Shown here: positions 46,545-64,000 of the stretch, piece by piece
How positions within the stretch are numbered: the stretch's first letter is position 1
How the letters are laid out: every line of letters starts with the position of its first letter
Assembly: GCF_023016285.1 (NCBI RefSeq)
Contig: NZ_CP095413.1
Span: 1,178,001 to 1,242,000 of the forward strand
Direction: 5' to 3'
From: Muricauda sp. SCSIO 64092
GTDB taxonomy: Bacteria; Bacteroidota; Bacteroidia; Flavobacteriales; Flavobacteriaceae
DNA: 64,000 nucleotides
Notes under the pieces: model-generated
Told to the model about the DNA's origin: nothing
Databases searched by the model: none
The model's input: only the letters and a program-made list of their open reading frames with translations
Translations under genes and position numbers: made by a program

Positions 46545-46625
46545 TTACTGGATCAATTCCAAAGCCAAAAGTATAATCCATCCCAATCCTAAAACATGAT
46601 GGATATCAGGTTTCCTGTTTTTCAT
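46545..46625 (-). CDS. Possible 26-residue membrane peptide
   Basis: ATG at 46625-46623, TAA at 46547-46545. A basic start (MKNRKPDIHH) precedes one hydrophobic stretch (VLGLGWIILLALELIQ), the composition of a single-helix small membrane protein. It lies just upstream of the universal stress gene on the same strand. An internal -7 element for that gene overlaps it. Such a short frame could occur by chance. Confidence 0.3.
   Translation of the reverse strand: MKNRKPDIHHVLGLGWIILLALELIQ
46566..46573 (-). promoter_or_regulatory. -7 element of the usp-SLC13 operon
   Basis: Read leftward, TACTTTTG matches TAnnTTTG, 37 bases before the usp ATG. Confidence 0.5.
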
Positions 46626-47456: not shown

Positions 47457-47542
47457 GGGCCATAAAATTGGAAACTTGATAAATATCATGTTTTTTCCGG
47501 CATATGAATTCTACTTTTATCAACAAATAAATGTTAAATGTC

Positions 47543-49516: not shown

Positions 49517-51363
49517 TAAGAAAAATCTGTTTTACTGAGAATTCCTACCAAAGTATTGTCCAAAACTACCGGAAGACAACCAATTTTATTTGTTTCCATG
49601 GATGCTAAAGCTAGGGAAACTTCTGATTCTGGCGAAATGGTAATGACATCTTTTATCATAACATCCGACACTACGGTACTCTCAAAATTGACTTCTTTTT
49701 CCAAAGATTCCAAATACCCCCAGGTAAGAAGCCCTGCCAATTCCCCGTGATCATTTTCCACCGGGATATGATGGATTCCATTCCATTCCATAATGGCCTT
49801 TGCCATACTCACATAGTCATCCTCATTCAGTTTCAACAGATGGGTGGTCATTAATTCCTTGACCAATCTAGGGGTGCGTTTAACCTTTTCCAGATGAATA
49901 TCTTCCCACTTATGGATGGGAAGGTTATTGGTCTGATTCTCCACCATTTTCTTGGTCAATAGCACGAGTGACTTATCCGTTTTGAACTTTTTCTTCAGTT
50001 TTCTTAGGTTGGCCACCTGCCACTGCTCCCCCGTCCTGCCTTTGGTCCTGGCCTCAATTATGCCCAAAAGACGTTCTACGTCCTCATCATCCACACCACA
50101 TCTATGTAGCCCCTTATAAGCGATGGGCAAAAGTTTGTTCAAAACCAATTTCTTGGCGGTATACGATTCACCGCACCAGGAAAACAAGGTCTCTTTTCCA
50201 GATCTCGCAGCCTTGATAAAATTGGTTTTCGCAGCCTTAAAATCCATTTGGGATGGCATATCATCAAAGGCTTTTGGACGACCCTTCATCAATCCAACCC
50301 AAAAAGCAAAGTTTGCTATCTCGTCCAATACGGAAGGCCCGGAAGGGATATATCTATTTTCGATTCTAAGATGGGGCTTCCCATTGCCAACACCATAGCA
50401 GGCCCTGTTCCACCGATAGACCGTTCCATTGTGCAAACAAAGTGCAGGCAGTTTGGGTATCTCCCCATTGTTCAACTTTTCAAGGGAATTCTGCTCAATG
50501 GGTTTGGTCAATAATATACGGTGTTTGGAAATATCCTGCTTAAATATTTCCGCCACATCGCCTTTTTCCCAATGGTCCCCAAAGCCGACCCTTGGCGTTT
50601 GATTACGAAGGGCCGAGGCCGTTTTTCGGGTATCCAGACTTTGTTGGAACAAGGCTATCCTGGTTTCTTTCCATAACTCCCTGCCCATGAGCAGTGGAGA
50701 GTTGCAGCAGACCGAAAGTACGGGGCCAGCTATGGCCTGGGCCCAGTTATAGCTTTGCACAAAATCGTGCGAAGGTATCTGAAGGTGCAATTGGAAGCTT
50801 GTATTACAGGCCTCAAACATCACGGAATCATGTCTTAGGAACAGTTCATCCACCCCACGGATTTTGAGATTAAAATCGCCTCCCTTATAGGTTTTTAGCA
50901 TTTCATTCAATGCAAAATACCGTGGTATGGGGGTCAAATGATCCAGTCCAACCTCCTTTTTACCAATGGTGGGCAAAATTCCGGCCAGCAATAGTTTTGC
51001 ATTCAATCCCTTCGCCTTTTTAGCTGCCTTTTCAAGTAATCTACGCAATTGGTCCTCAACCAATGAAAAACAATTCCCTTTTAGTTCAAAGGGATCCAGG
51101 TTGATCTCAATATTATAACTTGCTAATTCAGTAGTAAAATGCGCATCATTGATAGCATCCAACAATTCCAGGTTCACCCCAAACGGCCTATAGTCCTCAT
51201 CTATAAGACAGAGCTCCTGTTCTGCTCCAATACGAACGATATCATCTTCAAAAAGCCCTCTTTCCAGTAAAAGCTCAAGTGCCTTAATATCGTCTATTAA
51301 ATGTTGTACAAAGGCCATTCGTTCCACAATGTCCTTCGTATTGTTTTTAATCATTTCTCCCAT
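49516..51363 (-). CDS. GCS2-like carboxylate-amine ligase fused to CBS domains
   Basis: About 615 residues from the ATG at 51363-51361; the frame is open to 51417. The N-terminal two thirds resemble the glutamate-cysteine ligase 2 / YbdK family: IVRIGAEQELCLIDEDYRPFGVN, YNIEINLDPFELKG, FQLHLQIPSHDFVQSYNWAQAI, NGKPHLRIENRYIPSGPSVLDE. The C-terminal part has a CBS pair (MTTHLLKLNEDDYVSMAKAIMEWNGIHHIPV and VVSDVMIKDVITISPESEVSLALASMETNKIGCLPVV), which usually binds adenine nucleotides. It probably ligates an amine to a carboxylate under nucleotide control. It is coupled to the aspartoacylase-like hydrolase, which could reverse or process its product. Confidence 0.82.
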   Translation of the reverse strand: MGEMIKNNTKDIVERMAFVQHLIDDIKALELLLERGLFEDDIVRIGAEQELCLIDEDYRPFGVNLELLDAINDAHFTTELASYNIEINLDPFELKGNCFSLVEDQLRRLLEKAAKKAKGLNAKLLLAGILPTIGKKEVGLDHLTPIPRYFALNEMLKTYKGGDFNLKIRGVDELFLRHDSVMFEACNTSFQLHLQIPSHDFVQSYNWAQAIAGPVLSVCCNSPLLMGRELWKETRIALFQQSLDTRKTASALRNQTPRVGFGDHWEKGDVAEIFKQDISKHRILLTKPIEQNSLEKLNNGEIPKLPALCLHNGTVYRWNRACYGVGNGKPHLRIENRYIPSGPSVLDEIANFAFWVGLMKGRPKAFDDMPSQMDFKAAKTNFIKAARSGKETLFSWCGESYTAKKLVLNKLLPIAYKGLHRCGVDDEDVERLLGIIEARTKGRTGEQWQVANLRKLKKKFKTDKSLVLLTKKMVENQTNNLPIHKWEDIHLEKVKRTPRLVKELMTTHLLKLNEDDYVSMAKAIMEWNGIHHIPVENDHGELAGLLTWGYLESLEKEVNFESTVVSDVMIKDVITISPESEVSLALASMETNKIGCLPVVLDNTLVGILSKTDFS

Positions 51364-51451
51364 AAGGAGCTTCTTTTTAACAAATCTAACGATCCGTAGG
51401 CGTTGAAAACATGACAATTATCAGCCTAGAGGCTTTGAAAATATGCCGAAA

Positions 51452-51494
51452 TGACATTTATCATATTTTCTTTGGTTGAACGCCGATACTTTTG
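51452..51494 (+). promoter_or_regulatory. CRP/FNR-type activated promoter of hemN-usp
   Basis: ATGA-CATTTA-TCAT (TGA at 51452-51454, TCA at 51461-51463; centre 51457.5) lies upstream of TACTTTTG (51487-51494). The centre-to-box distance is 29.5 bp, placing the dyad at about -42 from the probable start site, a class II activator position. No TTTG -33 element is needed or seen. The hemN ATG is at 51513. Confidence 0.75.
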
Positions 51495-51512
51495 GAAGTA
51501 TATTGAACAGGT

Positions 51513-52871
51513 ATGTGCAATTTAACGAGCAAATATAATGTTCCCGGCCCGCGTTATACCAGTTATCCAACTGTCCCGTACTGGGATGGGGATTATTTCT
51601 CCGGTAAAAAATGGAAGGAAAGTGTAAGGCAACGCTTTGACGAGTCTGGGAAAGAAGGCATAAGTGTTTATATCCATCTCCCCTTTTGTGAAAGTATGTG
51701 CACTTTTTGTGGTTGCCATAAAAGGATTACCAAAAAACATGAGGTGGAAGCACCTTATATCAATACACTACTTAAGGAATGGGTACTTTACCGGGATATT
51801 CTTGGGAAAAAACCTTTGATCAAGGAACTGCATCTTGGTGGAGGAACACCCACTTTTTTTTCACCGGAAAACCTGACCCGCCTCATCAATGGTATATTTA
51901 GGTTTGCCGATAGGGCCCCCGACGCCGAACTAAGCTTTGAAGGCCACCCGAACAATACGACCAAAGCACACTTACGGGCCCTCTACGATCTGGGATTTAG
52001 AAGGGTTTGCTTTGGTGTACAGGATTATAACGAAAACGTACAGTTGGCCATAAATCGGATACAACCTTTCGAAAAGGTGAAGTCCGTAACGGAAATGGCA
52101 AGGGAGGTTGGTTATACCTCCGTTGGGCACGATTTGGTCTATGGATTGCCATTCCAATCCGTGGATGATGTGAAGAACACCATTGAGCATACCAACATAG
52201 TAAGGCCCGATCGTATCGCCTTTTATAGCTATGCCCATGTTCCCTGGCGAAAGGGAAACGGACAACGCGGATACCTGGATAGTGACCTTCCCAATACGGA
52301 GGATAAAAAACTGCAGTATGAAATTGGGAAACAGTGGTTGTTGGCCAAAGGCTACAAGGAAATTGGAATGGATCATTTTGCGGTGGAATCGGATGACCTT
52401 TACCTAGCCATTAAGAAAGGGACCCTACACCGGAACTTTATGGGATACACCCCTTCCAAAACCCAGTTAATGATTGGACTTGGGGCAAGCAGCATAAGCG
52501 ACAGTTGGCATGCTTTTGCCCAAAATGTGAAGAGTATTGAAGAATACCAACATTTAATTGCTCACGATATTGTTCCTGTGTATCGCGGACATATTTTGAA
52601 TGATGAGGACAAATTGATCCGCAAACACATTTTAAATTTAATGTGCCACTTTAACACCTCTTGGGAAGTTGAACAGACCCAACATTTGGACTTTGGCCAC
52701 ATTATGGACAACTTGCGCGAATTGGAGACGGATGGATTGGTCCGTATGGGTTCCAATAGCATTGAAGTTACTGAAAAAGGAAGACCATTCATTAGAAATA
52801 TAAGTATGGCATTTGATCTAAAATTACACCGAAAGCAGCCGGAAACCCGCCTGTTTTCCATGACTGTCTAA
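51513..52871 (+). CDS. hemN: Oxygen-independent coproporphyrinogen III oxidase (radical SAM)
   Basis: 452 residues, HemN proper. It shows KYNVPGPRYTSYPTVPYWD, the cluster motif CESMCTFCGCHK (Cys59, Cys63, Cys66, plus Cys68), ELHLGGGTPTFFSPENLTRLI, SFEGHPNNTT and FGVQDYNENVQLAINRIQPF. It decarboxylates coproporphyrinogen III without oxygen, allowing haem synthesis under anoxia. It is preceded by a CRP/FNR-type promoter. A usp gene follows at 37 bases. Confidence 0.98.
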   Translation: MCNLTSKYNVPGPRYTSYPTVPYWDGDYFSGKKWKESVRQRFDESGKEGISVYIHLPFCESMCTFCGCHKRITKKHEVEAPYINTLLKEWVLYRDILGKKPLIKELHLGGGTPTFFSPENLTRLINGIFRFADRAPDAELSFEGHPNNTTKAHLRALYDLGFRRVCFGVQDYNENVQLAINRIQPFEKVKSVTEMAREVGYTSVGHDLVYGLPFQSVDDVKNTIEHTNIVRPDRIAFYSYAHVPWRKGNGQRGYLDSDLPNTEDKKLQYEIGKQWLLAKGYKEIGMDHFAVESDDLYLAIKKGTLHRNFMGYTPSKTQLMIGLGASSISDSWHAFAQNVKSIEEYQHLIAHDIVPVYRGHILNDEDKLIRKHILNLMCHFNTSWEVEQTQHLDFGHIMDNLRELETDGLVRMGSNSIEVTEKGRPFIRNISMAFDLKLHRKQPETRLFSMTV

Positions 52872-52908
52872 TCCACCTGTCCATTGATAGGTCCTAAATC
52901 TTATAAAA

Positions 52909-53730
52909 ATGAAAAGTATAATTGTACCCATAGATTTTTCGGAACAATCCGAAGTTGCCCTAAAAGTAGCGGCCAACTTGGCCAAAAAAATTGATTCGGA
53001 ACTGTTTGTGCTCCATATGCTGGAACTTTCCCCTGCCATTATGAGCAGTGGCGAGTATTTGCCCCAAGAGCATATTGTCCACCTAATGAAGCTTACGGAA
53101 AAACGTTTTTCGGAATTTCTGGCCAAAGACTATTTAAAGGGCGTAAACGTTACTCCTATCATTAAGCATTATAAGGTACTTAGCGAAATCAATAGTGTGG
53201 CCGAAAAGCACGAAATTGATTTGATCGTGATGGGATCGCACGGCACGGATGGCCTTCAGGAACTATTTATTGGCTCCAATACGGAACGCGTGGTGCGCAG
53301 CTCCGAAATCCCGGTTTTGGTAGTTAAGGGAGAAGTGGAAAACTTCAAGGCCGAACGTTTTATTTTCGCAAGTGATTTTAAGGAAGAAAGCGTACCAGCA
53401 GTGAAAAAGGCCGTTGAATTTGCCAAATTACTGGGTGCAGAACTTAAACTGGTATACATCAATACACCCGCAGATGCCTTTCTAAGTACGGAAGATGCCT
53501 ACAGTCGTATTTCCAAATTTTTGAATATCGCCATGTTGGGATTGGAAGTCGATATCTATAACGATTATAGCGTTGAAAAAGGTGTCCTGAATTATGCAGA
53601 ATCCAATGCTGCCGATTTAATTGGAATACCAACGCATGGAAGGCAGGGACTTTCCCACTTTTTTATGGGAAGTATTGGAGAGGATATTGCCAACCACAGT
53701 AAAATACCTGTGGTTACCTTTAAACTATAA
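52909..53730 (+). CDS. Universal stress protein, two UspA domains
   Basis: 273 residues. The first domain is KSIIVPIDFSEQSEVALKVAANLAKKID with LIVMGSHGTDGLQELFIGSNTERVVRSSEIPVLVV, where GSHG-x9-GSNTE is the ATP-binding type. The second is RFIFASDFKEESVPAVKKAVEFAKLLG with LIGIPTHGRQGLSHFFMGSIGEDIANHSKIPVVTF. It lies 37 bases after hemN, so it shares the anaerobic promoter. A strong terminator follows. Confidence 0.94.
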   Translation: MKSIIVPIDFSEQSEVALKVAANLAKKIDSELFVLHMLELSPAIMSSGEYLPQEHIVHLMKLTEKRFSEFLAKDYLKGVNVTPIIKHYKVLSEINSVAEKHEIDLIVMGSHGTDGLQELFIGSNTERVVRSSEIPVLVVKGEVENFKAERFIFASDFKEESVPAVKKAVEFAKLLGAELKLVYINTPADAFLSTEDAYSRISKFLNIAMLGLEVDIYNDYSVEKGVLNYAESNAADLIGIPTHGRQGLSHFFMGSIGEDIANHSKIPVVTFKL

Positions 53731-53755
53731 CTAACTAAACTGAGTATTTTTAGGA

Positions 53756-53784
53756 CCCTTGCTGTCATGACAGCAAGGGTTTTT
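53756..53784 (+). terminator. Terminator after hemN-usp
   Basis: A perfect 12-bp palindrome CCCTTGCTGTCA/TGACAGCAAGGG is followed by TTTTT. Confidence 0.9.
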
Positions 53785-53810
53785 AAAAAAGGATATTTTT
53801 ATCTTTTATA

Positions 53811-53853
53811 TGATAAAAGTCAGTTTTTCCCTTCCGTATACCCCCTACTTTTG
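53811..53853 (+). promoter_or_regulatory. CRP/FNR-type activated promoter of the copper-receptor unit
   Basis: ATGA-TAAAAG-TCAG (TGA 53811-53813, TCA 53820-53822; centre 53816.5) and TACTTTTG (53846-53853) are 29.5 bp apart, the same as at hemN and nos. The box ends 16 bases before the ATG at 53870. Confidence 0.7.
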
Positions 53854-53869
53854 AAGCGTGAAACAGCTT

Positions 53870-54232
53870 ATGGCCATACCGCTCATTTTTATCATGATGG
53901 TAAAACCGTTATGGCCCATAGCAGAATACATTATCAATTACGATTATATCGTCACCAACCTCTGTGAAAACAAAAACAGGCCCCAACTGGAATGTGATGG
54001 CAAATGCTATTTATCCAAAATGTTGGCCGAAGAATCCAGAAACAATCACAAGAATCCATTTGGTGAACTGCAAATGCTGGAAATCCCATTGCTATTGCCA
54101 ATTGGTATCACTTCTAATTTTATTGATTTTGAAATAAGGGCCCATCATAAGAACAATCCGATTGGATTTTCGCAAAACTTGCGTGCCCTTCTTCTTGTGT
54201 TCAAGATAATTCACCCCCCTGAGCTGTCCTAA
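53870..54232 (+). CDS. Small protein with CDGKC motif next to a copper receptor
   Basis: 120 residues from the ATG at 53870. A GTG at 53858 is also in frame but lies only 4 bases from the -7 box. A hydrophobic N-terminus (AIPLIFIMMVKPLWPIAEYIIN) acts as signal or anchor. NLCENKNRPQLECDGKCYLSKML then gives three cysteines including a C-x3-C pair, a plausible Cu(I) site. The C-terminal half has no recognisable domain. It is first in a unit with the OprC/NosA-like receptor (79-base gap). I recall similar CNGKC-type proteins beside copper receptors in Bacteroidota, but the function is not assigned. Confidence 0.7.
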   Translation: MAIPLIFIMMVKPLWPIAEYIINYDYIVTNLCENKNRPQLECDGKCYLSKMLAEESRNNHKNPFGELQMLEIPLLLPIGITSNFIDFEIRAHHKNNPIGFSQNLRALLLVFKIIHPPELS

Positions 54233-54311
54233 AAACCGAAACCCGGTACCAGTCCCTTAGGCGACATAAAGCCTAAACTACTCGGAACAGTCGAATTATC
54301 AAATAACAATA

Positions 54312-56576
54312 ATGAATTTTATACAATCAGTTTGCAAAGGGCTGTTGGTTGCCCTTATTTACCACATGGGGTTTTTATCCATGGCCCAAGAAACCAAGAC
54401 CATAAAATTGTTGGACAAGGACAATGCCATGCCCATTGTAGGCGCAACCTTTGAATACGGCCAACAAAACGGAACAACGGATGAAAACGGAAATTTTCAG
54501 TTCGCATATAATGAAGGAGGAACTTTGTACTTATCACACATCAACTATGGAAAATGGGCATTGAATAATGATGCCGTTTTGAAAATGATTCGTGAAAAGG
54601 TGCTTTACCAACAAAGTATTACGGTAAATCTATATCCGGTAACGGTAATTGCCCTAAGGCCCAATGAAAAACCTGCGGACAAGGTAAAATTGGACTACCA
54701 GGAACAATTGGCCCACGACGGTGCGTCCGTATTGAATCAAAACCCTGCATTAAATAGCATTCGCAAGGGGGGCAACTATGGCTTTGATCCCGTTTTTAGG
54801 GGTTTTAAGTATGATCAATTAAATATAGTACTCAATGGGGCCCAGGGCGCAACGGCGGCCTGTCCAAACCGCATGGATCCCCCTACCAGTCAAATGGCAC
54901 CAAACATGTTAGATCGCATAGAAGTACTCAAAGGTCCCCACGCCCTTAGGTTTGGGACAGGATTTGGGGCTACCATAAATTTTATTCCCACCAAGCTACG
55001 TTTCACGGAAGAAGATGCGCTCTATGGCCGCGTATCCAGCGGATATGAGGGCAATGGTACAGTTCTTAGAAATGAGGGGAAATTGGGTTTTAGTGGGGAA
55101 AATCACGATATCGCTTTATTTGGTTCATGGTCCCAGGGCAACGATTATACTTCCGGTAACGGTCAGGTCGTAGCAGCGGATTTTAACCGTGGTAGTTTTG
55201 GCACCAATTTAGGATTCAACATTTCCGATGACCATCAATTACGGTTATCGGCAATCTATAATATAGCCAGGGACGCCGATTTTCCAGCTCTGCCCATGGA
55301 CCTGAGGACTGACGACACCTGGCTGTTCAATGCCAAGCATGATGTTACTTTTGAAAACAGGAGCTTGAGTTCCTGGAACACCACGGTTTTTGCCTCATTT
55401 GTCGATCATTTAATGGACAATCTCCTTAAACCTCTTGATCCCAGAATGCTGAATGCCGAAACCAACGCCACAACTTATAATTATGGAGGCAGGACCGAAG
55501 GTATCTGGGATTTTGAAAAATCGAACCTTTTTGCAGGGGCCGATTTCAGGCGTGAAGGTGCCGAAGGTACAAGGGTTCGCGAATTCTTGATGGGTCCTAA
55601 TGCCGGACGTACCTTTGAAGATAATGCTTGGCAAGATGGCTTTATTACAAAAAGTAGTGTTTTTGCCGAATACCATTTTAAACCAAAAAACATCCAATTC
55701 GTTTTCTCCACAAGATTGGAAGTGAATAGCGCAAACACCAATGATCCTGCCGATGAATTTGCCCAGGTCAATGGAGATGCGCAGATAACCCAATTTAATC
55801 CAAGTTTTAGCCTGGGGGCCACAACAACTATTGGGAAGGATTTGGTTATGGGACTTTGGTTGGGACGTGCGCAACGCAGTGCAGGCCTCACGGAACGCTT
55901 CATTAATTATTTTCCGGTAGGCCAAGATCCCTTCGAACTATTGGGCAATCCCCAACTTGATCCGGAAGTCAATAATCAGTTGGATCTTTCCTTTCAATGG
56001 ACGGGTACCCATAGCAATCTGGGAGTAGACCTATTTGCCGGGTATTTACAGGACTTCATATCTTCTTTTATCGATTCCGAGCTGTCACCAAGATTACCCA
56101 ATAGCCCCGGTGTCAGGAAATTTGTGAATATTGAGGATGCATTTAAGACCGGGATAGAAATTAATTGGAAACAACAATTGTTGGTCGGCCTTCAACACCA
56201 GGTGGGTATGGCCTATACCTATGCCCAGGATTTGGAACGTGATGAGCCATTGCCGGAAATTGCCCCTTTGGATTTTAGATATGTCTTGATCGGAGACTAT
56301 TTTGATGGTAAACTAAAACCTGAACTTACTTTTAGACATGTCCTGCGACAGTCGCGGATATCCACAGAGTTTGGAGAAACGGAAACCCCTTCCTTTTCTT
56401 TACTGAATGTGCAATTGGCGTATCAATTGACAAAGGCGACTCGACTCACCGCGGGTGTGAACAATATTTTTGACGATAACTATTATGAACATTTAAATCG
56501 CTCGGTAAGGGGAAACAATATTCCCATTTTTGCTCCCGGACGTAACGCCTTTGCGTCCTTAAATTTTGTTTTTTAG
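54312..56576 (+). CDS. TonB-dependent copper receptor, OprC/NosA type
   Basis: 754 residues: signal peptide (LLVALIYHMGFLSMAQ), carboxypeptidase-like domain (VGATFEYGQQNGTTDENGNFQF), plug and barrel. The plug has ACPNRMDPPTSQMAPNMLDRIEVLKGPHALRFG. Cys184-x3-Met188 here and His366-x-Met368 (VDHLMDN) in the barrel correspond to the CxxxM-HxM copper site known for Pseudomonas OprC and its relative NosA. NosA supplies copper for nitrous-oxide reductase, which fits the nos operon 1.1 kb downstream. It ends with a 17-bp-stem terminator. Confidence 0.88.
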   Translation: MNFIQSVCKGLLVALIYHMGFLSMAQETKTIKLLDKDNAMPIVGATFEYGQQNGTTDENGNFQFAYNEGGTLYLSHINYGKWALNNDAVLKMIREKVLYQQSITVNLYPVTVIALRPNEKPADKVKLDYQEQLAHDGASVLNQNPALNSIRKGGNYGFDPVFRGFKYDQLNIVLNGAQGATAACPNRMDPPTSQMAPNMLDRIEVLKGPHALRFGTGFGATINFIPTKLRFTEEDALYGRVSSGYEGNGTVLRNEGKLGFSGENHDIALFGSWSQGNDYTSGNGQVVAADFNRGSFGTNLGFNISDDHQLRLSAIYNIARDADFPALPMDLRTDDTWLFNAKHDVTFENRSLSSWNTTVFASFVDHLMDNLLKPLDPRMLNAETNATTYNYGGRTEGIWDFEKSNLFAGADFRREGAEGTRVREFLMGPNAGRTFEDNAWQDGFITKSSVFAEYHFKPKNIQFVFSTRLEVNSANTNDPADEFAQVNGDAQITQFNPSFSLGATTTIGKDLVMGLWLGRAQRSAGLTERFINYFPVGQDPFELLGNPQLDPEVNNQLDLSFQWTGTHSNLGVDLFAGYLQDFISSFIDSELSPRLPNSPGVRKFVNIEDAFKTGIEINWKQQLLVGLQHQVGMAYTYAQDLERDEPLPEIAPLDFRYVLIGDYFDGKLKPELTFRHVLRQSRISTEFGETETPSFSLLNVQLAYQLTKATRLTAGVNNIFDDNYYEHLNRSVRGNNIPIFAPGRNAFASLNFVF

Positions 56577-56600
56577 CAAAGGCACCTGCCTTACACACTA

Positions 56601-56650
56601 AACCAGATCTTTTGAAAAAGTACTTCTTATTTCAAAAGATCTGGTTTTTG
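56601..56650 (+). terminator. Terminator after the copper receptor
   Basis: AACCAGATCTTTTGAAA (56601-56617) and TTTCAAAAGATCTGGTT (56630-56646) form a perfect 17-bp stem followed by a T run. Confidence 0.92.
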
Positions 56651-56732
56651 TGCGATCACCAATGGCCACTAACAATGTTTTGGGCAATTGACGCAAGCGC
56701 ATTTAGTGACACCCTTCATAACTAAACCCATC

Positions 56733-56924
56733 CTAAGGGTACTGGGAGCAGGTCAGAGTAGCTTGACCATCAACTTCTTCGATAGTTGGCCCATCGTCTT
56801 CTTTTTTGGAATCCAAACAAGCGAACATCGGAAAAATGGAACAAACTACAACTAGAAAATGTAGGAGGTTAGGTTTCCGAAGAAACCCCTTTGGATTTGA
56901 AGTCCAGAGTTCCCAACAAAACAA
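56733..56924 (-). CDS. Doubtful small lipoprotein
   Basis: A 63-codon frame whose middle reads like a lipoprotein signal (LLHFLVVVCSIFPMFAC followed by LDSKKEDDGPTIEEVDG). It has only a TTG start and an unusually long n-region. It may be a decayed or very short lipoprotein gene. No family is recognised. Confidence 0.3.
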   Translation of the reverse strand: MFCWELWTSNPKGFLRKPNLLHFLVVVCSIFPMFACLDSKKEDDGPTIEEVDGQATLTCSQYP

Positions 56925-56950
56925 TGAAATTCCCTGTAAACCGATAAGTC

Positions 56951-57060
56951 GTCATTCCTGCATCACCCTGAACGTTTCGCGCGGGAGGTGAGTCGAAGGG
57001 AAGGCAGAAATCCATTTGCTCAGGAAATACCGTGGATTCCGCATCAAGTTCGGAATGACA
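56951..57060. repeat. Dispersed-type inverted repeat
   Basis: GTCATTCC (56951-56958) and GGAATGAC (57052-57059) bound the element, with inner pairing of AATCCA and TGGATT. The text (GTCATTCCTGC, GAAGGCAG-like, GATTCCGCATCAAGT, CGGAATGACA) resembles a common bacterial intergenic repeat class. Confidence 0.6.
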
Positions 57061-57163
57061 GCATCGTTTGAAAAAAGTGTGTGGAAACTGAAGTAAACCA
57101 TATTCCCGAAGCCCATAATATAGGTGATGTTTTAAAGTTGGGAATAGTAAGGTTGTCTTAATA

Positions 57164-57595
57164 CTATAATGGTAATACGCATTTTCCTTTGCCTATCTCG
57201 GTGACCATTTGGGAAATTGTGGTTTCCTCCAAATTCTTGATGAAGATGTTCTTAATATCCCCAATCAAATGATGAAGGGGACATGGATTCTCTTCATCGC
57301 ATTCGGCTATACTCAACATACAGGACCGTAGGCGTTGTTCCCCATCAATTACGTCAACAATTTTGATCAATTGGGTTTCCATATTTTCTTCGGTCAAATA
57401 AAAACCACCATATGGCCCTTTGACCGAAGAAACAATCCCATGTCTTCCCAATTCCTGAAGCAACTTGGCCGTGTACGCCGTAGGGGCATTAATTGGTTTT
57501 GCAACATCCTTTGCAAGAATTTTTTTGGATTCGCTGGCATTGACCGCTAGGTATAAAACCCCTTTTAGGGCATATTTGGAAGAATTCGAGAGCAT
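57164..57595 (-). CDS. Rrf2 family regulator with NsrR-like cysteines
   Basis: 143 residues. The N-terminal winged helix (SNSSKYALKGVLYLAVNA, APTAYTAKLLQELGRHGIVSSVKGPYGGFYL) is followed by cysteines at 92, 99 and 105 (C-x6-C-x5-C), nearly the NsrR spacing that holds an Fe-S cluster sensitive to nitric oxide. It is divergent from the nos operon, and the CRP/FNR-type site lies between them. It is a likely sensor of NO or Fe-S status controlling nos or NO-detoxification genes (inference). Confidence 0.88.
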   Translation of the reverse strand: MLSNSSKYALKGVLYLAVNASESKKILAKDVAKPINAPTAYTAKLLQELGRHGIVSSVKGPYGGFYLTEENMETQLIKIVDVIDGEQRLRSCMLSIAECDEENPCPLHHLIGDIKNIFIKNLEETTISQMVTEIGKGKCVLPL

Positions 57596-57606
57596 AATAC
57601 TTTTTC

Positions 57607-57614
57607 CAAATGTA
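57607..57614 (-). promoter_or_regulatory. -7 element of the Rrf2 gene
   Basis: Read leftward, TACATTTG is a perfect TAnnTTTG 11 bases before the ATG. The CRP/FNR dyad centre is 35.5 bp upstream of it, so that site could affect both directions. Confidence 0.6.
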
Positions 57615-57640
57615 AAGATTAAAAGACATTTTTATCCTTT

Positions 57641-57686
57641 ATATGACATAAATCATATTTTTCATAAATAACCACCATTATTTTTG
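57641..57686 (+). promoter_or_regulatory. CRP/FNR-type activated promoter of the nos operon
   Basis: A perfect palindrome ATATGA-CATAAA-TCATAT (57641-57658, centre 57649.5) precedes TATTTTTG (57679-57686) by 29.5 bp from its centre, identical to the hemN and copper-receptor promoters. The first gene starts at 57710. Confidence 0.8.
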
Positions 57687-57709: not shown

Positions 57710-58216
57710 ATGAAAATCAATATTTCAATTTTAGCTTGCTTGTTTGCTTTAATCCTTGTTGGATGTGGAGGTAAAACGGAAAAAAAAGAAGAAGGTTTTA
57801 GTGTAAATAGGAAAAAATCTCCCGAAAAAGTAGAACAAAGTACTCCTGAAACCAACGATGTTCCTGCCTCCCAACGCATAACCCTGGACAACAAAGGGGT
57901 TGGGCAGATCAAGGACATTACCTTGGACCCGGAAATAGACCAGGCCATGGCAAATGCGGGCGGTGAACTCTTCAAGACCAATTGTACGGCCTGCCATAGA
58001 ACGGACAAGCGTTTTATTGGTCCAAAAATGCAGGGCATTTTGGAACGCAGGAGTCCTGAATGGGTAATGAACATGATCCTGGATCCCCAGCTCATGGTTG
58101 AGGAGGACCGTTGTGCCAAGGATTTGTTGGTGGAATTCAACGGCGCCGCCATGTCCAACCAAAACCTTACCGTGGAACAAACCCGTTCCCTCCTGGAATT
58201 TTTTAGAACACTCTAA
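57710..58216 (+). CDS. Lipoprotein c-type cytochrome of the nos operon
   Basis: 168 residues. A lipoprotein signal (NISILACLFALILVGC, Cys19) and a charged linker (20-75) lead to a single-haem domain with CTACH at 92-96 and a Met ligand candidate near 147 (NGAAMSNQNLT). It is first gene of the operon, 12 bases before the fasciclin gene. A membrane-tethered monohaem cytochrome here is the likely electron donor to NosZ, since clade II systems use cytochromes c in place of NosR. Confidence 0.9.
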   Translation: MKINISILACLFALILVGCGGKTEKKEEGFSVNRKKSPEKVEQSTPETNDVPASQRITLDNKGVGQIKDITLDPEIDQAMANAGGELFKTNCTACHRTDKRFIGPKMQGILERRSPEWVMNMILDPQLMVEEDRCAKDLLVEFNGAAMSNQNLTVEQTRSLLEFFRTL

Positions 58217-58228
58217 ATTTTTTATCAT

Positions 58229-58816
58229 ATGAAAGCAACGACCCGACTTAAATTTTTGGTTTATCCGCTGCTACTGCTTTTTTTGGCAGTGGGTTGTAAT
58301 TCCGCAAACAAGACCGATAAATCCTCCAATTCAACGGAGGGTGTGGGTATAGAAACCAAAAAGGAACAGGGGCAGGCATTTATAGAGAACGATGAATCGA
58401 CTCCCAATGTCCTGCAAATTGCCATTGGTTCACAGGACCACACTACTTTGGTGGCTGCCGTGCAAGCTGCCGATCTGGAGAATGCCCTTGTTAATGCCGG
58501 ACCCTTAATGGTGTTTGCACCAACCAATGATGCCTTTGCCGCCCTGCCCGAAGGGACGGTGGAAAACCTCCTAAAACCCGAAAACAAGGATGCACTGGCC
58601 AACATTTTAAAGCATCATGTAACCCCGGGCAACTATTCAAAGGAATTTTTGAAAAAATTCAAAAAGCTTGGGCAAGCCAATGGCCAGGATGCACTAATTG
58701 AGGTTAAAGGTGAAGACGTTTATGTGGGTGGGGCCAAAATTCTTGGCAGTGTTAGTGGCGGAAATGGAATTGTACACGTAGTGGATAAGGTTATCCTACC
58801 ACCTTCCGAAGAGTAA
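58229..58816 (+). CDS. Fasciclin-domain lipoprotein
   Basis: 195 residues: lipoprotein signal (FLVYPLLLLFLAVGC), Ser/Thr linker, and one FAS1 domain (DHTTLVAAVQAADLENALVNAGPLMVFAPTNDAFAALPEGTVENLL, LANILKHHVTPGNY, GNGIVHVVDKVILPP). FAS1 domains mediate adhesion or protein contact. Its place between the cytochrome and nosZ implies a scaffold or assembly role for NosZ (inference). Confidence 0.9.
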   Translation: MKATTRLKFLVYPLLLLFLAVGCNSANKTDKSSNSTEGVGIETKKEQGQAFIENDESTPNVLQIAIGSQDHTTLVAAVQAADLENALVNAGPLMVFAPTNDAFAALPEGTVENLLKPENKDALANILKHHVTPGNYSKEFLKKFKKLGQANGQDALIEVKGEDVYVGGAKILGSVSGGNGIVHVVDKVILPPSEE

Positions 58817-58847
58817 ATAGCTAAATACCAATAAATACAATAAGACA

Positions 58848-60809
58848 ATGAAAAAAATCTATTATGTTATTGGCGGTCTTTTGGGTGCAACCCTACTTTA
58901 TATGGGCTGTAATCAGGCCGCTGGTCCAAATACCAGTGGTGCCCTGGCATCATCCGCCGCCGAAAAGGTGTATGTTGCACCGGGTGAACAAGATGAGTTC
59001 TATGCCTTCCTTTCAGGGGGATATAGCGGAAACTTGACGGTTTATGGACTTCCCTCTGGACGTATGTTCAAGGAAATTCCAGTGTTCTCCCAGTTCCCAA
59101 CTTCGGGATATGGATATTCTGAAGAGACCAAACCCATGTTGAATACCTCTTTTGGGTTTGTACCTTGGGACGATTTGCACCACCCCGATATTTCCCAAAC
59201 CAACGGGGAGTTGGATGGTCGATGGGTTTTTGTAAACGGTAACAATACCCCACGTATCGCCCGTATAAGTTTGGAAACTTTTGAAACCGAGGAAATTATT
59301 GAAATACCCAATAGTGGTGGTAACCATAGTTCGGCATTTATTACCGAAAATACAGAGTATGTTATCGCAGGAACGCGCTTCGCCGTACCTGTTCCACAAC
59401 GGGATATGCCCATTAATGAGTACAAGGGAAACTTTAAAGGTGCGCTTAGTTTTATAAGTGTAGATCCGGAAACCGGCCGCCTGGATTTGAAATTTCAGGT
59501 ATTAATGCCAGGTTTCAATTACGACCTTTCCCACCCCGGCCGTGGAAAATCACATGGATGGCACTTCTTTAGCACCTACAATACCGAGGAGGCAAATACC
59601 TTAATGGAAGTTAACTCCTCCCAAAATGACAAGGATTTTATAGCTGCCATTAACTGGAAAAAGATTGAAGAATATGTGAATAACGGTGGCGGGGAGAAAA
59701 TGGCTACCAACTATGCACATAATATCTATAGCCATGAAACCCATACGGGAACTTCAACAATGAAAAAAGAGGTCGTTACCGTTGACCCCACCAAAGTTCC
59801 GGATGCAGTGTTTTTCTTACCCACTCCAAAATCCCCCCACGGGTGCGATGTTGATCCTTCCGGTGAATACATTATTGGTTCCGGTAAGCTTTCGGCCGAT
59901 TTAACCGTTCATTCCTTTACCAAAATGCTTGCTGCCATTGAAGGCAAAAAATTTGATGGTGAAGCGTATGGCATTCCCATTTTGAGTTTTGATGATGTCA
60001 TGGCCGGTATTGTAAAAAGTGGAGGTTTAGGCCCATTACACACCGAATTTGATGCGCGGGGAAATGCCTACACCACGTTCTTCATTTCTTCCGAAGTGGT
60101 GAAATGGAGATTGGAAACTTGGGATGTAGTGGATAGAAAACCAACATTTTATTCAGTGGGCCATTTAATGATTCCCGGTGGAAACTCACGTAAACCATTT
60201 GGTAAATATGTGGTGGCCATGAACAAAATCACCAAAGATCGTTATCTGCCCACAGGTCCGGAAATGGAGCACTCCGCACAGATTTATGACATATCGGGCG
60301 AAAAAATGGAGTTGATCTATGATTTCCCAACACATGGGGAGCCACACTATGCAGCAGGATGTCCGGCAGAATTATTGGCATCCAAATCCAAGAAAATCTA
60401 TCGCCTGGACGAAAACAAACACCCTTATGCGGTCACCAATCCTTCAGAGGCCAGGGTAGAGCGTAATGGTAACGAGGTACACGTGTATATGAGTACCATC
60501 CGCAGCCACTTTACCCCGGATAATATAGAAGGCATTAAAGTTGGCGATAAGGTGTATTTCCATATTACGAACCATGAGCAGGACTTTGATGTTCCCCATG
60601 GATTCTCAATTATTGGACAGAATACTTCCGAGCTATTGATTATGCCCGGACAGACCAAAACTTCGGTTTGGGAACCCAAACAAGTTGGTGTGTGGCCATT
60701 TTATTGCACGGATTTTTGTTCGGCCCTTCACCAGGAAATGCAAGGTTACGTAAGGGTTTCCCCGGCCAATTCCAATATTGATCTTTCATGGTCACTGGGT
60801 GGTGAATAA
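58848..60809 (+). CDS. nosZ: Nitrous-oxide reductase, clade II (Sec-dependent)
   Basis: 653 residues. The N-terminus (MKKIYYVIGGLLGATLLYMG, then Cys21) is a Sec signal without twin Arg and with a relaxed lipobox, so the enzyme may be lipid-anchored. A seven-bladed propeller with CuZ-type His segments (DDLHHPDISQTNGELDGRW, GGNHSSAFI, LSHPGRGKSHGWHFFS, PHGCDVDPSGEY, HGEPHYAAG) leads to the cupredoxin domain with the CuA set WPFYCTDFCSALHQEMQG. It reduces N2O to N2. Confidence 0.98.
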   Translation: MKKIYYVIGGLLGATLLYMGCNQAAGPNTSGALASSAAEKVYVAPGEQDEFYAFLSGGYSGNLTVYGLPSGRMFKEIPVFSQFPTSGYGYSEETKPMLNTSFGFVPWDDLHHPDISQTNGELDGRWVFVNGNNTPRIARISLETFETEEIIEIPNSGGNHSSAFITENTEYVIAGTRFAVPVPQRDMPINEYKGNFKGALSFISVDPETGRLDLKFQVLMPGFNYDLSHPGRGKSHGWHFFSTYNTEEANTLMEVNSSQNDKDFIAAINWKKIEEYVNNGGGEKMATNYAHNIYSHETHTGTSTMKKEVVTVDPTKVPDAVFFLPTPKSPHGCDVDPSGEYIIGSGKLSADLTVHSFTKMLAAIEGKKFDGEAYGIPILSFDDVMAGIVKSGGLGPLHTEFDARGNAYTTFFISSEVVKWRLETWDVVDRKPTFYSVGHLMIPGGNSRKPFGKYVVAMNKITKDRYLPTGPEMEHSAQIYDISGEKMELIYDFPTHGEPHYAAGCPAELLASKSKKIYRLDENKHPYAVTNPSEARVERNGNEVHVYMSTIRSHFTPDNIEGIKVGDKVYFHITNHEQDFDVPHGFSIIGQNTSELLIMPGQTKTSVWEPKQVGVWPFYCTDFCSALHQEMQGYVRVSPANSNIDLSWSLGGE

Positions 60810-60833
60810 CACAACAACTAACCAATAAAGAAG

Positions 60834-60868
60834 AAGCGGGTCTGGTGCCATTGGCCCGGCCCGCTTTT
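60834..60868 (+). terminator. Hairpin between nosZ and nosB, probable attenuator
   Basis: AGCGGG (60835-60840) pairs with CCCGCT (60860-60865) followed by TTT. Stem and T run are short, so it probably ends only part of the transcripts, leaving nosZ more abundant than the accessory genes. Confidence 0.5.
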
Positions 60869-60880
60869 AAATTCAAAAGA

Positions 60881-61525
60881 ATGAAAAAAGCAAGTGTGTT
60901 GATGATGATAGGTTCAGCTTTGTTGCTGGGTCTCTTTGTTTTTCCCTTGTGGAACATTGAGCTTGGAGCACCACAATACCCTGAACCTTTAGGTCTAAAT
61001 ATCCATATTGATGGATTACAGGGTCAAAGTGAGTTTGATATCCAAAACATAGATGGGCTTAACCACTATATCGGCATGAAAACGCTTCCAAAGCCGGAAG
61101 ATATGTGGGAATTCACCGTGTTTCCCATTGTCATTGGCGGAATGGCAGCAATAGGTATTCTAATTGGTCTTCTGGGATTCGTGGATAAACTTGGTCCTTC
61201 CTGGTTTTTTGGCTGGTTTGTGGTCATGACCATTTTAGGTATCTTGGGTATGTATGATTTTAATGCTTGGATGGTGGATTATGGGACAAACCTAGACCCC
61301 AATGCAATCATGAAACTTCAAAATCCGGATGGTACCCCAATGAGTTACAAACCTCCCCTGTTGGGTCATAAAAAAATGCTGAATTTTGATGCCTATTCCT
61401 ATCCCAGGTTAGGAGCGTATTTAATGTTTATAGGTATGTGCCTGACCCTCTTTGCGGGATATATTGGGGGTAAAACCAGTACTAAAACAACAAAATCACT
61501 GACCAAAAAAATGGCCACTACATGA
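60881..61525 (+). CDS. NosB-like integral membrane protein
   Basis: 214 residues from the ATG at 60881. About four helices (ASVLMMIGSALLLGLFVFPLWNI, FPIVIGGMAAIGILIGLLGF, WFFGWFVVMTILGILGM, AYLMFIGMCLTLFAGYIGG) with a periplasmic loop between the first two. Position right after nosZ and size fit NosB of clade II nos clusters, whose exact job is not settled. It overlaps nosL by 4 bases (ATGA). Confidence 0.75.
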   Translation: MKKASVLMMIGSALLLGLFVFPLWNIELGAPQYPEPLGLNIHIDGLQGQSEFDIQNIDGLNHYIGMKTLPKPEDMWEFTVFPIVIGGMAAIGILIGLLGFVDKLGPSWFFGWFVVMTILGILGMYDFNAWMVDYGTNLDPNAIMKLQNPDGTPMSYKPPLLGHKKMLNFDAYSYPRLGAYLMFIGMCLTLFAGYIGGKTSTKTTKSLTKKMATT

Positions 61526-61950
61526 AAAAAGGGATCGTCTATTTTCTGTTGCTCTTTGTCCTGGGGTGCTCCATTGGCCCAAAGCCCATTATTTACGGGG
61601 AAACGTCCTGTCATTTTTGTAGCATGACCATTGTGGATAAGCAACATGCCTCCCAACTGGTCACCAAAAAGGGAAAGGTGTTCAACTTTGATGCCATCGA
61701 GTGTATGTTAAACCACCTTAACGAGGTTGAAGCACAGAAAATGGGCCTTCTTTTGACCAATACCTATCATGACCCAGAGGATTTAATGGATGCCACCAAG
61801 GCAACGTTTTTGATCAGTGAAGGCATTCCGAGTCCCATGGGGGAATATTTAACGGCTTTCAAGACCTTGGAGGAAGCCCAAAAGGCACAGAAGGAACATG
61901 AGGGGGAAATCTTTACTTGGGAAGAACTCAGGGCCAGGTTTAGAAAGTAA
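61522..61950 (+). CDS. nosL: NosL copper chaperone lipoprotein
   Basis: 142 residues: lipoprotein signal (MKKGIVYFLLLFVLGC, Cys16), then the NosL copper motif CHFCSM (Cys30, Cys33, Met35), QLVTKKGKVFNFDAIECML and the C-terminal IPSPMGEYLTAFKTLEEAQKA. NosL delivers Cu(I) to NosZ maturation through NosDFY. Confidence 0.95.
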   Translation: MKKGIVYFLLLFVLGCSIGPKPIIYGETSCHFCSMTIVDKQHASQLVTKKGKVFNFDAIECMLNHLNEVEAQKMGLLLTNTYHDPEDLMDATKATFLISEGIPSPMGEYLTAFKTLEEAQKAQKEHEGEIFTWEELRARFRK

Positions 61951-61968
61951 CCTTTTAAAAATACATCC

Positions 61969-62268
61969 ATGTATACCATCAATGTAAATAATACCATTGC
62001 CAATCAGTCCTTTGAAGGTGTACAGGTCAAGCAACTGGTAAAAAGTAGTCGTTTTGAAGTGTTGAGCATCAGTATTGCCAAAAATGCCGTTTTCCCCACA
62101 CATAAATCCCATGAAGATGCCCATTTGATTGTTATGGAAGGTAAAATCACCTTTTATATCGAGGGAAATCCCATAAACCTGATGGAACAACAAGAATTTA
62201 GTTTTCCCAAGAACATACCGCATTGGGTAGAAGCTTTGGAAGACTCCAAATTCCTTATTATTCGTTAA
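61969..62268 (+). CDS. Cupin-domain protein in the nos operon
   Basis: 99 residues forming a single cupin: PTHKSHEDAHLIVMEGKITFYIEGNPINLM (metal-type His-x3-His segment; Glu) and FPKNIPHWVEALEDSKFLII. There is no signal peptide, so it is cytoplasmic. It lies between nosL and nosD and overlaps nosD by one base. It is not part of the usual nos gene set; it may sense or buffer a metal or small ligand (inference). Confidence 0.88.
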   Translation: MYTINVNNTIANQSFEGVQVKQLVKSSRFEVLSISIAKNAVFPTHKSHEDAHLIVMEGKITFYIEGNPINLMEQQEFSFPKNIPHWVEALEDSKFLIIR

Positions 62269-63506
62269 TGAGAAAATCCCTTTACTTGGCGTTTGGGTTT
62301 TTCCTATTATTTACTTGGGGCGTTGCGGCCAAGACCGTAGAAGTATGTGAATCCTGCCCGGTAAAATCCATTAAAGGGGCCATAGCCCTGGCCAAGGATT
62401 ATGATACCGTTCTAGTTAAAAAAGGAACCTATTACGAGTTTGATATCCTTATTGACAAACCTTTGACCTTAAAAGGGGAGGGCTATCCCATAGTGGATGG
62501 CCAAAAAAAGGGGGAGATCATAAAGATTATTTCGGACAATGTAACCGTGGACGGCCTATTTATCATTAATGTTGGGGTGAGCTACACGACTGATTTTGCC
62601 GCCATACGGGTAACCAAAAGTGAACATTTCACCATTCAGAATGTGGTATTGGAAAAGTTGTTCTTCGGAATCTATTTGGAAAAATCCTCAAATGGCAAAG
62701 TGTACCACAATAAGATTATTGGAGATGCCAAAGATGAATACAACTCGGGCAATGGCATTCAACTGTGGTATTCGCATTATGTGGATGTAAGCCATAACCA
62801 TGTACAAGGTACCCGTGATGGTATCTATCTGGAGTTTTCAGATAATATTACCATTACAAAGAACACCAGTACCAAAAACCTTCGTTACGGCCTACATTTC
62901 ATGTTTTCGGACAATGACGTGTATTCCCAGAACACCTTTGAGGAAAACGGTGCGGGCGTAGCCGTCATGTTTTCAAGGAACATAAGTATGCAAAACAACA
63001 CTTTTAGAAAAAATTGGGGGCCTGCCGCATATGGAATGCTGTTAAAGGAGATCAATGATGCAGACATTCAAAACAATACATTTGAGGAAAACACCGTAGC
63101 CATCAGTATTGAGGGATCGAACAGAATTACCTATAAAGACAATGATTTCATAAAAAACGGTTGGGCCATTCGAGTTATTGGGGCGTGCTATACCAATATA
63201 TTTACGGGCAATAACTTTATGAACAATTCTTTTGACGTTTCCTATAACAGCAAATTGAACGACAATGAATTTCGATCCAATTATTGGAGTGATTATACGG
63301 GATACGATTTGGATAGGGATGGCACAGGGGATGTTCCCTATCGTCCGGTAAAACTGTTTTCTTATATTGCCAATAAAACCCCAGAGACCATTGTCCTGCT
63401 AAGGAGTCTATTTATGGACATTATTGATTTTTCGGAAAAAGTGTCCCCGGTATTCACTCCGGATAATTTAGAGGACGCCCAACCTTTGATGAAAAAACGC
63501 CAATGA
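62268..63506 (+). CDS. nosD: NosD, periplasmic copper-processing beta-helix protein
   Basis: 412 residues from the ATG at 62268 (signal MRKSLYLAFGFFLLFTWGVA). The frame extends upstream but the signal fixes the start. Right-handed parallel beta-helix with many short N-rich repeats (VEKLFFGIYLEKSSNGKVYHN, GIYLEFSDNITITKNTS, GAGVAVMFSRNISMQNNTF, NTVAISIEGSN) and a terminal NYWSDYTGYDLDRDGTGDVPYRP, the NosD hallmark. It works with the NosFY transporter in CuZ assembly. It overlaps nosF by 4 bases. Confidence 0.97.
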   Translation: MRKSLYLAFGFFLLFTWGVAAKTVEVCESCPVKSIKGAIALAKDYDTVLVKKGTYYEFDILIDKPLTLKGEGYPIVDGQKKGEIIKIISDNVTVDGLFIINVGVSYTTDFAAIRVTKSEHFTIQNVVLEKLFFGIYLEKSSNGKVYHNKIIGDAKDEYNSGNGIQLWYSHYVDVSHNHVQGTRDGIYLEFSDNITITKNTSTKNLRYGLHFMFSDNDVYSQNTFEENGAGVAVMFSRNISMQNNTFRKNWGPAAYGMLLKEINDADIQNNTFEENTVAISIEGSNRITYKDNDFIKNGWAIRVIGACYTNIFTGNNFMNNSFDVSYNSKLNDNEFRSNYWSDYTGYDLDRDGTGDVPYRPVKLFSYIANKTPETIVLLRSLFMDIIDFSEKVSPVFTPDNLEDAQPLMKKRQ

Positions 63507-64000
63507 TACAGATTACCGATTTGCACAAAAAGTTTGGTAAAAATGAGGTGTTAAAAGGGCTTGACCTTACCATTGAACCTGGAAGGATATATGCTATTTT
63601 AGGACCCAACGGCTCGGGAAAAACCACTTTGATCAAAAGTATTTTGGGTATGGTACTTCCAGACAAGGGCAAAATAGAAGTTCTTGGCAAACCCATAGAA
63701 AAAGGATGGAAATACCGAAAACAAATAGACTACCTCCCACAAATTGCAAATTTCCCAGGAAACTTGAAGGTGAGGGAACTCATAAAAATGATCAAGGACC
63801 TTAGGAACGATGAAGGAAATGAGGAACTGTTGATTACAACGTTTTCCCTGCAACCCCATTTGGACAAAAAGCTGTCCAACTTATCCGGTGGTACCAAACA
63901 GAAGGTAAATCTGGTCCTTGCCTTTATGTTCAATAGCCAATTACTTATTTTGGACGAACCCAATACCGGATTGGATCCCAATGCCCTCATTAAACTAAAG
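63503..64000 (+). CDS. nosF: NosF, ABC transporter ATP-binding protein (cut by window end)
   Basis: The first 166 codons remain. Walker A is LGPNGSGKTT, the signature is LSGGTKQKVNLVLAF, Walker B is LLILDEPNTGLDP. It powers NosY and acts on NosD in copper-cluster assembly. The start overlaps the nosD stop (ATGA). nosY should follow outside the window. Confidence 0.95.
   Translation, partial: MIQITDLHKKFGKNEVLKGLDLTIEPGRIYAILGPNGSGKTTLIKSILGMVLPDKGKIEVLGKPIEKGWKYRKQIDYLPQIANFPGNLKVRELIKMIKDLRNDEGNEELLITTFSLQPHLDKKLSNLSGGTKQKVNLVLAFMFNSQLLILDEPNTGLDPNALIKLK

Follow-up and report, generated by a model that had tools for sequence, protein, structure and literature searches.

A dyad at a fixed distance from the flavobacterial promoter box precedes hemN, nos and other genes of Muricauda sp. 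SCSIO 64092 and is predicted to serve an FNR-like regulator

The window analysed here is a stretch of 64,000 nucleotides of Muricauda sp. SCSIO 64092 (C1:1178001-1242000 of a genome of 5,689,803 bases on one contig). It carries genes for haem synthesis (hemN), universal stress proteins, a TonB-dependent receptor and nitrous oxide (N2O) reduction (nos), which lie behind copies of one operator-promoter, the dyad TGA-N6-TCA followed 23 bp on by the box TAnnTTTG (Table 1). The initial annotation had described three such promoters, before hemN-usp, before the unit of a small CDGKC protein and the receptor, and before nos. Their dyads and perfect boxes were found exactly where it placed them, and the distance of 29.5 bp from dyad centre to box held at all three and recurred in the further sites found. 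The three promoters are real, but they make up half of the set: the window holds five exact copies and one copy with a single mismatch, and the annotation had missed two exact copies on the minus strand as well as the mismatched one.

Table 1. Operator-promoters, the genes behind them and candidate regulators (window positions unless a locus or contig is named)
Feature	Position	Strand	Remarks
Operator-promoter, exact	46566..46608	-	before universal stress protein gene 45737-46528 (-); Pfam Usp
Operator-promoter, one box mismatch (TTTA)	47477..47519	+	before tonB gene 47531-48265; Pfam TonB_C
Operator-promoter, exact	51381..51423	-	before divergent gene 49516-51363: CBS domains, very weak glutamate-cysteine ligase match
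Operator-promoter of hemN-usp, exact	51452..51494	+	dyad 51452-51463, centre 51457.5; box 51487-51494
hemN, oxygen-independent coproporphyrinogen III oxidase	51513..52871	+	TIGR00538 409 bits, cut-off 325
Universal stress protein, two Usp stretches	52909..53730	+	Pfam Usp
Operator-promoter of CDGKC-protein/TonB-receptor unit, exact	53811..53853	+	dyad 53811-53822, centre 53816.5; box 53846-53853
Small CDGKC protein	53870..54232	+	likelier start ATG 53870
TonB-dependent receptor	54312..56576	+	top NCBIfam match a copper receptor model, below cut-off (224 vs 472 bits)
Rrf2-family regulator gene, divergent from nos	57164..57595	-	TIGR00738 89.7 bits, cut-off 73.3
Operator-promoter of nos operon, exact	57644..57686	+	dyad 57644-57655, centre 57649.5; box 57679-57686
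nos genes, predicted operon	57710..64000, runs past window end	+	cytochrome c protein 57710, fasciclin-domain protein 58229, NosZ 58848-60809, NosD 62223
CRP-A, tandem neighbour and paralogue of FNR-B, behind exact site	L055:16292-17032		helix PEYVIN
FNR-B, FNR-like	L055:17094-17786 = G000:C1:1258094-1258786		about 16 kb past window end, beside cbb3 oxidase genes
RR-CRP, receiver-CRP response regulator	L056:4396-5445		with PAS histidine kinase in stress-protein island

The signal lies in the spacing, since the dyad alone showed no more than a mild excess in the window (20 copies of ATGA-N6-TCA where 11.1 were expected; 3 of 100 shuffles reached as many). The spacing of 23 bp gave five matches there, against two for 36 other spacings (8 to 44) together. 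Across the genome the exact pattern occurred 20 times and its reversed form, which served as the control for genome scans, once; with one mismatch allowed the counts were 60 and 12. These numbers do not fit the compact regulon first proposed. When the gap was left free from 8 to 38 bp, 59 sites were listed, 19 at 23 bp and 40 over 30 other spacings, none of which held more than four, and one further 23-bp site was masked by a nearer box. Two of the 20 exact sites (L011 and L018) lie over genes, with no target seen, and are probably chance matches.

The same lock was seen in relatives. In a set of 120 Flavobacteriaceae genomes, no two of which carry the same genus label, the fixed pattern occurred 1070 times and the control 110 times. 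Of 82 genomes, our own included, 61 had a perfect site ahead of hemN (28 of the 30 best loci and 33 of 52 others), in one case at approximately 270 nt. Upstream of nosZ it was found in 33 of 38 loci, again with our own: 28 among the best 30 and 5 among 8 others. This count covers 38 of the 56 nosZ-bearing genomes, and of the two loci in the first 30 that lack the site, one (L191) begins close to the end of a contig. In the hemN and nos regions together, a perfect box followed 95 dyads at a distance of 5 to 45 bp; the spacing was 23 in 94 cases and 24 in one (hemN, G033). In the further loci (52 hemN, 8 nos) six hemN and two nos dyads had a one-mismatch box at 23. A sample of the phylum was also scanned. 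Its 19 Flavobacteriaceae, four of which belong to the set of 120 as well, gave 214 sites and 15 control matches; two more genomes of the order gave 22 and 2, and 28 genomes from other orders of the class gave 129 and 22. Outside the class the motif was weak (149 against 43 in 149 genomes). We conclude that the architecture belongs to a family-wide system, probably with two readers.

Class II activators such as FNR and CRP of Escherichia coli are centred at -41.5. The dyad centre of the present sites also falls at -41.5, because it lies 29.5 bp before a box that occupies -12 to -5 in a transcript map of Flavobacterium psychrophilum (PMC9723704). TTG as a -33 element, at 17 to 20 nucleotides from the box, was seen in 2 of the 20 own sites and in none of 27 hemN sites of relatives. 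The initial annotation had placed an activator at about -42 over a missing -33 element; the position and the missing element were borne out, and the dyad proved to lie strictly just upstream of the -33 place, which a T-tract often occupies. Thus the dyad lies where a class II site is expected, by the published flavobacterial starts of F. psychrophilum (PMC9723704), and the upstream core element is poor. A CRP/FNR-type class II architecture with a respiratory and anaerobic gene set is supported, and activation by the bound protein is predicted.

Elsewhere in the genome, exact sites precede genes for pyruvate formate-lyase (pflB), biotin synthase, OmpW, a ribosomal S30AE (hibernation-factor-type) protein and a biotin carboxyl carrier-type protein. 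One-mismatch sites precede those for NrfH and pyruvate phosphate dikinase and, 214 nt downstream, the cbb3 oxidase CcoNO. The predicted regulon would include pflB, OmpW, nrfH, the cbb3 oxidase and stress proteins, some of them at one mismatch. Within the window, the nos genes gave matches to NosZ (TIGR04246, 932 bits), NosD (TIGR04247, 446 bits) and Cytochrom_C and Fasciclin domains, and their order and common strand suggest one operon; the Rrf2-family gene beside them is a possible second input. The copper uptake read into the TonB receptor is uncertain: a copper receptor model is indeed its best NCBIfam match, but at a score below the cut-off. The CDGKC protein, translated from 53858 to 54229, had no Pfam or NCBIfam match, and ATG 53870 is its likelier start because GTG 53858 is only 4 nt past the box, too close.

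The genome encodes 19 proteins with PF00027 (cNMP-domain) matches, of which only FNR-B and RR-CRP carry the recognition helix TESxIR. Its E and R were invariant in 81 of 81 FNR-B rows (80 loci and the query) and in 31 of 31 RR-CRP rows (own protein counted twice). R180 and E181 of CRP are named as specificity positions in the literature (PMC1274295). By these positions, with E at CRP 181 and R at 185 kept, and a residue other than R at 180, the helix would fit TGA without the G of TGTGA. Three short CRP proteins (L041, L049, L051) with helices PE(T/S)xSR also keep E and R. CRP-A is an unlikely reader, since its helix has lost the DNA-contacting Arg and a copy of more than 45% identity was present in 11 of 80 FNR-B loci; it is a possible modulator or heterodimer partner.

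Both candidates were associated with the motif across genomes. The median number of sites was 1 in genomes with neither regulator (n=22), 9 with RR-CRP only (n=27), 7 with FNR-B only (n=44) and 14 with both (n=27). RR-CRP raised the hits per Mb without FNR-B (P 1.5e-7, Mann-Whitney) and with it (P 4e-4), and FNR-B raised them without RR-CRP (P 7e-7), although these values ignore kinship and therefore overstate independence, the sampled genomes being related, and many genomes with neither regulator are small. Perfect hemN sites were found in 22 of 27 genomes with both, 25 of 33 with FNR-B only and 14 of 21 with RR-CRP only; the sole hemN genome with neither (0/1; G023) is among those whose hemN promoter has no dyad. 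Sites at a spacing of 23 also dominated the regulators' own surroundings, with 63 in 78 FNR-B loci (other spacings from 8 to 38, at most seven each) and 40 in 29 RR-CRP loci (at most four each). Because each of these two CRP-superfamily proteins follows the motif, the single regulator of the initial annotation is doubtful.

FNR-B loci hold CcoNO in 66 of 78 cases and a heavy-metal ATPase in 75 of 78, and a perfect site lies at most 380 nt upstream of FNR-B itself in 35 of 78 loci of relatives, which suggests autoregulation in some of them. RR-CRP has the domains PF00072, PF00027 and PF13545, with D9, D10, D52 and K104 invariant in 31 of 31 rows (own protein again counted twice), and a kinase match (tblastn E 1e-15) was present in 29 of 29 loci. 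Receiver, phospho-acceptor, CRP output and adjoining kinase fit a response regulator with CRP output.

In our genome the sites form two clusters of ten, with one mismatch allowed; each comprises nine dyads, because two sites per cluster share one dyad. Cluster 1 (C1:1,224,566-1,258,848) covers the window genes, the cbb3 oxidase genes, the heavy-metal ATPase, the FNR pair and a stress protein. Cluster 2 (C1:2,542,078-2,559,572; L348, L361) surrounds the PAS kinase, RR-CRP and nine universal stress protein genes. Although the clusters were chosen after the positions had been seen, they differ sharply: TTTT two bases after TCA occurred in 9 of 10 sites of cluster 1 and 0 of 10 of cluster 2, and G or C at inner dyad positions in 2 of 40 and 17 of 40, respectively. 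The exact window sites are of the cluster 1 type. Comparing three FNR-B-only with three RR-CRP-only genomes (the first 30 loci of each class, of 45 and 46 sites; one FNR-B-only locus gave no site and was dropped) showed no difference in the T count after the dyad (P 0.36) but one in inner GC (P 0.012), with TTTT in 9 of 29 against 3 of 30. Of the hemN sites, TTTT marked 32 of the 47 in genomes with FNR-B but 2 of the 14 in RR-CRP-only genomes (P 0.0005, uncorrected).

Two side observations concern these clusters. The island of cluster 2 also holds a metallo-beta-lactamase/rhodanese protein, and its content is DosR-like. In cluster 1, between the heavy-metal ATPase and CRP-A (G000:C1:1257268-1257341), one dyad has boxes 23 bp off on both sides, one of them with a mismatch. 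Such double-box dyads were also seen in relatives (G017:C2:256994-257067, G083:C9:37510-37583, G069:C14:150276-150349), and at each of them one dimer could, when bound, serve the divergent genes on both sides.

FNR-B has the domains of FNR (PF00027, 69 bits; PF13545, 58.8 bits). Cys 6, 9, 55 and 108 were present in 81 of 81 rows and again in 18 of another 20 copies, which reach down to approximately 45% identity; in the two exceptions (G020, G043) the N-terminus is missing or poorly aligned. C6, C9 and C108 align with the FNR ligands C20, C23 and C122, with N15 at the place of C29, and we propose the invariant C55, which lies elsewhere, as a replacement cluster ligand. FNR joins the site TTGAT-N4-ATCAA to a helix E..SR; here the site is ATGAY-N4-RTCAT and the helix E193..I196-R197, in which E and R are kept and S is replaced by I. 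FNR-B is classed as a variant because it departs from FNR in its ligand set, its site and its score against the model cut-off. Oxygen as the signal would fit a relative, F. psychrophilum, in which the cbb3 oxidase and haem synthesis enzymes rise under oxygen limitation (PMC9723704); the main text of that paper does not contain 'crp' and names no CRP/FNR regulator.

We consider it likely that an FNR-like regulator uses these sites for class II activation, with FNR-B as the main reader in the window and RR-CRP as a second reader. A CRP-superfamily dimer would bind ATGAY-N4-RTCAT centred at -41.5 and replace the -33 element of the flavobacterial sigma-A promoter at its TAnnTTTG box. FNR-B is the most likely main reader of the window sites, and its CX2C, C55 and C108 are the probable ligands of an oxygen-labile Fe-S cluster. 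On loss of oxygen, the cbb3 oxidase, haem synthesis, nos, nrfH, pflB and stress proteins would be switched on. RR-CRP, of the same helix class and with a PAS histidine kinase as partner, would read an overlapping class of motif, mainly in its own universal stress protein island. More tentatively, and with somewhat less than even confidence, we suggest that one operator class locked at -41.5 serves two inputs in Flavobacteriaceae, an FNR with rearranged ligands (C29 lost, C55 gained) and the kinase-controlled RR-CRP. If so, the same promoters would receive both an oxygen signal and a phosphorelay, which across the family would couple N2O reduction of clade II with cbb3 respiration, haem synthesis and a DosR-like island of stress proteins.

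Several points, besides the kinship and genome sizes mentioned above, weigh against assigning the sites to FNR-B and RR-CRP in this way. The perfect site is absent from 21 of 82 hemN promoters, and 12 of the 52 further ones have no dyad within a stretch of 361 bases. When RR-CRP is present, FNR-B raises the hits per Mb weakly (P 0.08). G048, which has neither regulator (82% complete), has 10 sites, and four genomes have few sites despite FNR-B (G012 3, G026 3, G085 2, G100 1); loss of the helix E and R as the cause of these low counts was rejected, as both are kept. Of the nos sites, 7 of 10 keep TTTT in genomes with RR-CRP only and 12 of 18 in those with FNR-B, so the two motifs are not cleanly split, and a split by regulator that was sharp between our own two clusters was not obtained across genomes. 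FNR-B lacks the third canonical FNR cysteine (C29) and scores below the NCBI Fnr cut-off (119.6 against 228 bits), though Fnr is still the best of 13 matching models. The own-genome sites of nrfH, cbb3 and the ATPase each carry a mismatch, and at that tolerance the control gave 12 matches to the 60 sites.

The alternatives differ in the reader or in the signal. The roles could be reversed, with RR-CRP, driven by its PAS kinase, as the main reader of all sites including those of the window and FNR-B as secondary. The kinase match in all RR-CRP loci, the shared helix residues, the median of 9 sites in RR-CRP-only genomes, the perfect site at 14 of their 21 hemN promoters and the 10 nos sites that they own among the 30 best loci would agree with this. 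However, the 44 FNR-B-only genomes keep a median of 7 sites and a perfect site at 25 of 33 hemN promoters, the window sites have the T-tract of the FNR-B cluster instead of the GC-richer inner motif of the RR-CRP island, and TTTT at hemN is rare in RR-CRP-only genomes. We therefore regard a leading role of RR-CRP as unlikely. A CRP-type reader that answers a metabolite, NO or redox state rather than oxygen, in a stress or nutrient regulon that is merely FNR-like, we also consider rather improbable. The incomplete FNR cysteine set speaks for it, as do universal stress proteins, biotin synthase and tonB among the genes after sites, which are not classic FNR targets. Against it stand the four invariant cysteines, kept in distant copies, the presence of nrfH, pflB, hemN, nos and the cbb3 oxidase among the same genes, and the rise of cbb3 and haem genes under oxygen limitation in F. 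psychrophilum (PMC9723704).

It is very unlikely that the neighbouring Rrf2-family protein (NsrR-like, sensing NO or Fe-S) mainly controls nos and that the dyad is a general promoter element. The Rrf2 gene is divergent from nos in our genome, and 15 of 30 nosZ loci, our own included, have a similar gene nearby, many of these cut by the locus end; but the dyad at 23 bp also stands before hemN and other genes, with no Rrf2 gene seen beside them, and it is present in 33 of 38 nos loci. That the sites are a chance or compositional artefact of AT-rich intergenic DNA, as the mild excess of the dyad alone might suggest, has a negligible probability: the spacing lock, the reversed-pattern controls and the hemN and nos promoters of relatives reject it. 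The same genome, window and 120-genome controls and promoters answer the reservation in the initial annotation that this spacing might be equally common elsewhere, which it is not. FNR-B as main reader, with RR-CRP beside it, is the account that we retain.

Flavobacteria that carry clade II nosZ are regarded as sinks for N2O, and their N2O consumption gains a candidate on-switch. In searches of open-licence PMC full text, whose matches were screened by title and opening of the abstract, we found no description of a transcriptional switch for flavobacterial nos. The result gives a family-wide prediction of base pairs, start sites, two regulators and co-regulated genes. It also suggests that the ligands of the oxygen sensor have changed and that a CRP-output response regulator reads the same operator class.

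Known systems share parts of this arrangement. The mycobacterial DosR dormancy regulon joins a sensor kinase and a response regulator to a cluster of universal stress proteins, a combination that the gene content here resembles; the output in our genome is CRP-type instead of LuxR/NarL-type and the kinase has PAS domains, so that RR-CRP is not a NarL/LuxR-type regulator and the island would at most work like DosR. In Proteobacteria, DNR, NnrR or FixK2 controls nos, and activation of nos by a CRP/FNR protein is likewise predicted here; in contrast, the present nos is Sec-dependent, of clade II, and the gene set adds the cbb3 oxidase, pflB and universal stress proteins. Among the model matches of FNR-B, FixK was far below its cut-off and no DNR or NnrR model appeared. 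HcpR2 of Bacteroides is of the same family and phylum, but the motif given for it, GTAACnnnnGTTAC, and its regulon, mostly hcp alone, differ from the sites here (PMC1274295). The flavobacterial sigma-A promoter, as described in PMC9723704, has an identical -7 box, TAnnTTTG; its -33 TTG is mostly absent from our sites, and the dyad, often with a T-tract, stands upstream instead.

The closest resemblance is to E. coli-type FNR at class II promoters, where FNR is centred at -41.5 and holds its cluster by C20, C23, C29 and C122. The dyad of TGA half sites, its centre, the anaerobic respiratory targets, the CX2C and the equivalent of C122 are the same. The half site here is ATGA instead of TTGA, the sigma box is TAnnTTTG, the equivalent of C29 is missing and an invariant C55 is added, and the helix is TESAIR for VETISR. 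With these differences, the flavobacterial system is predicted to work like FNR class II control.

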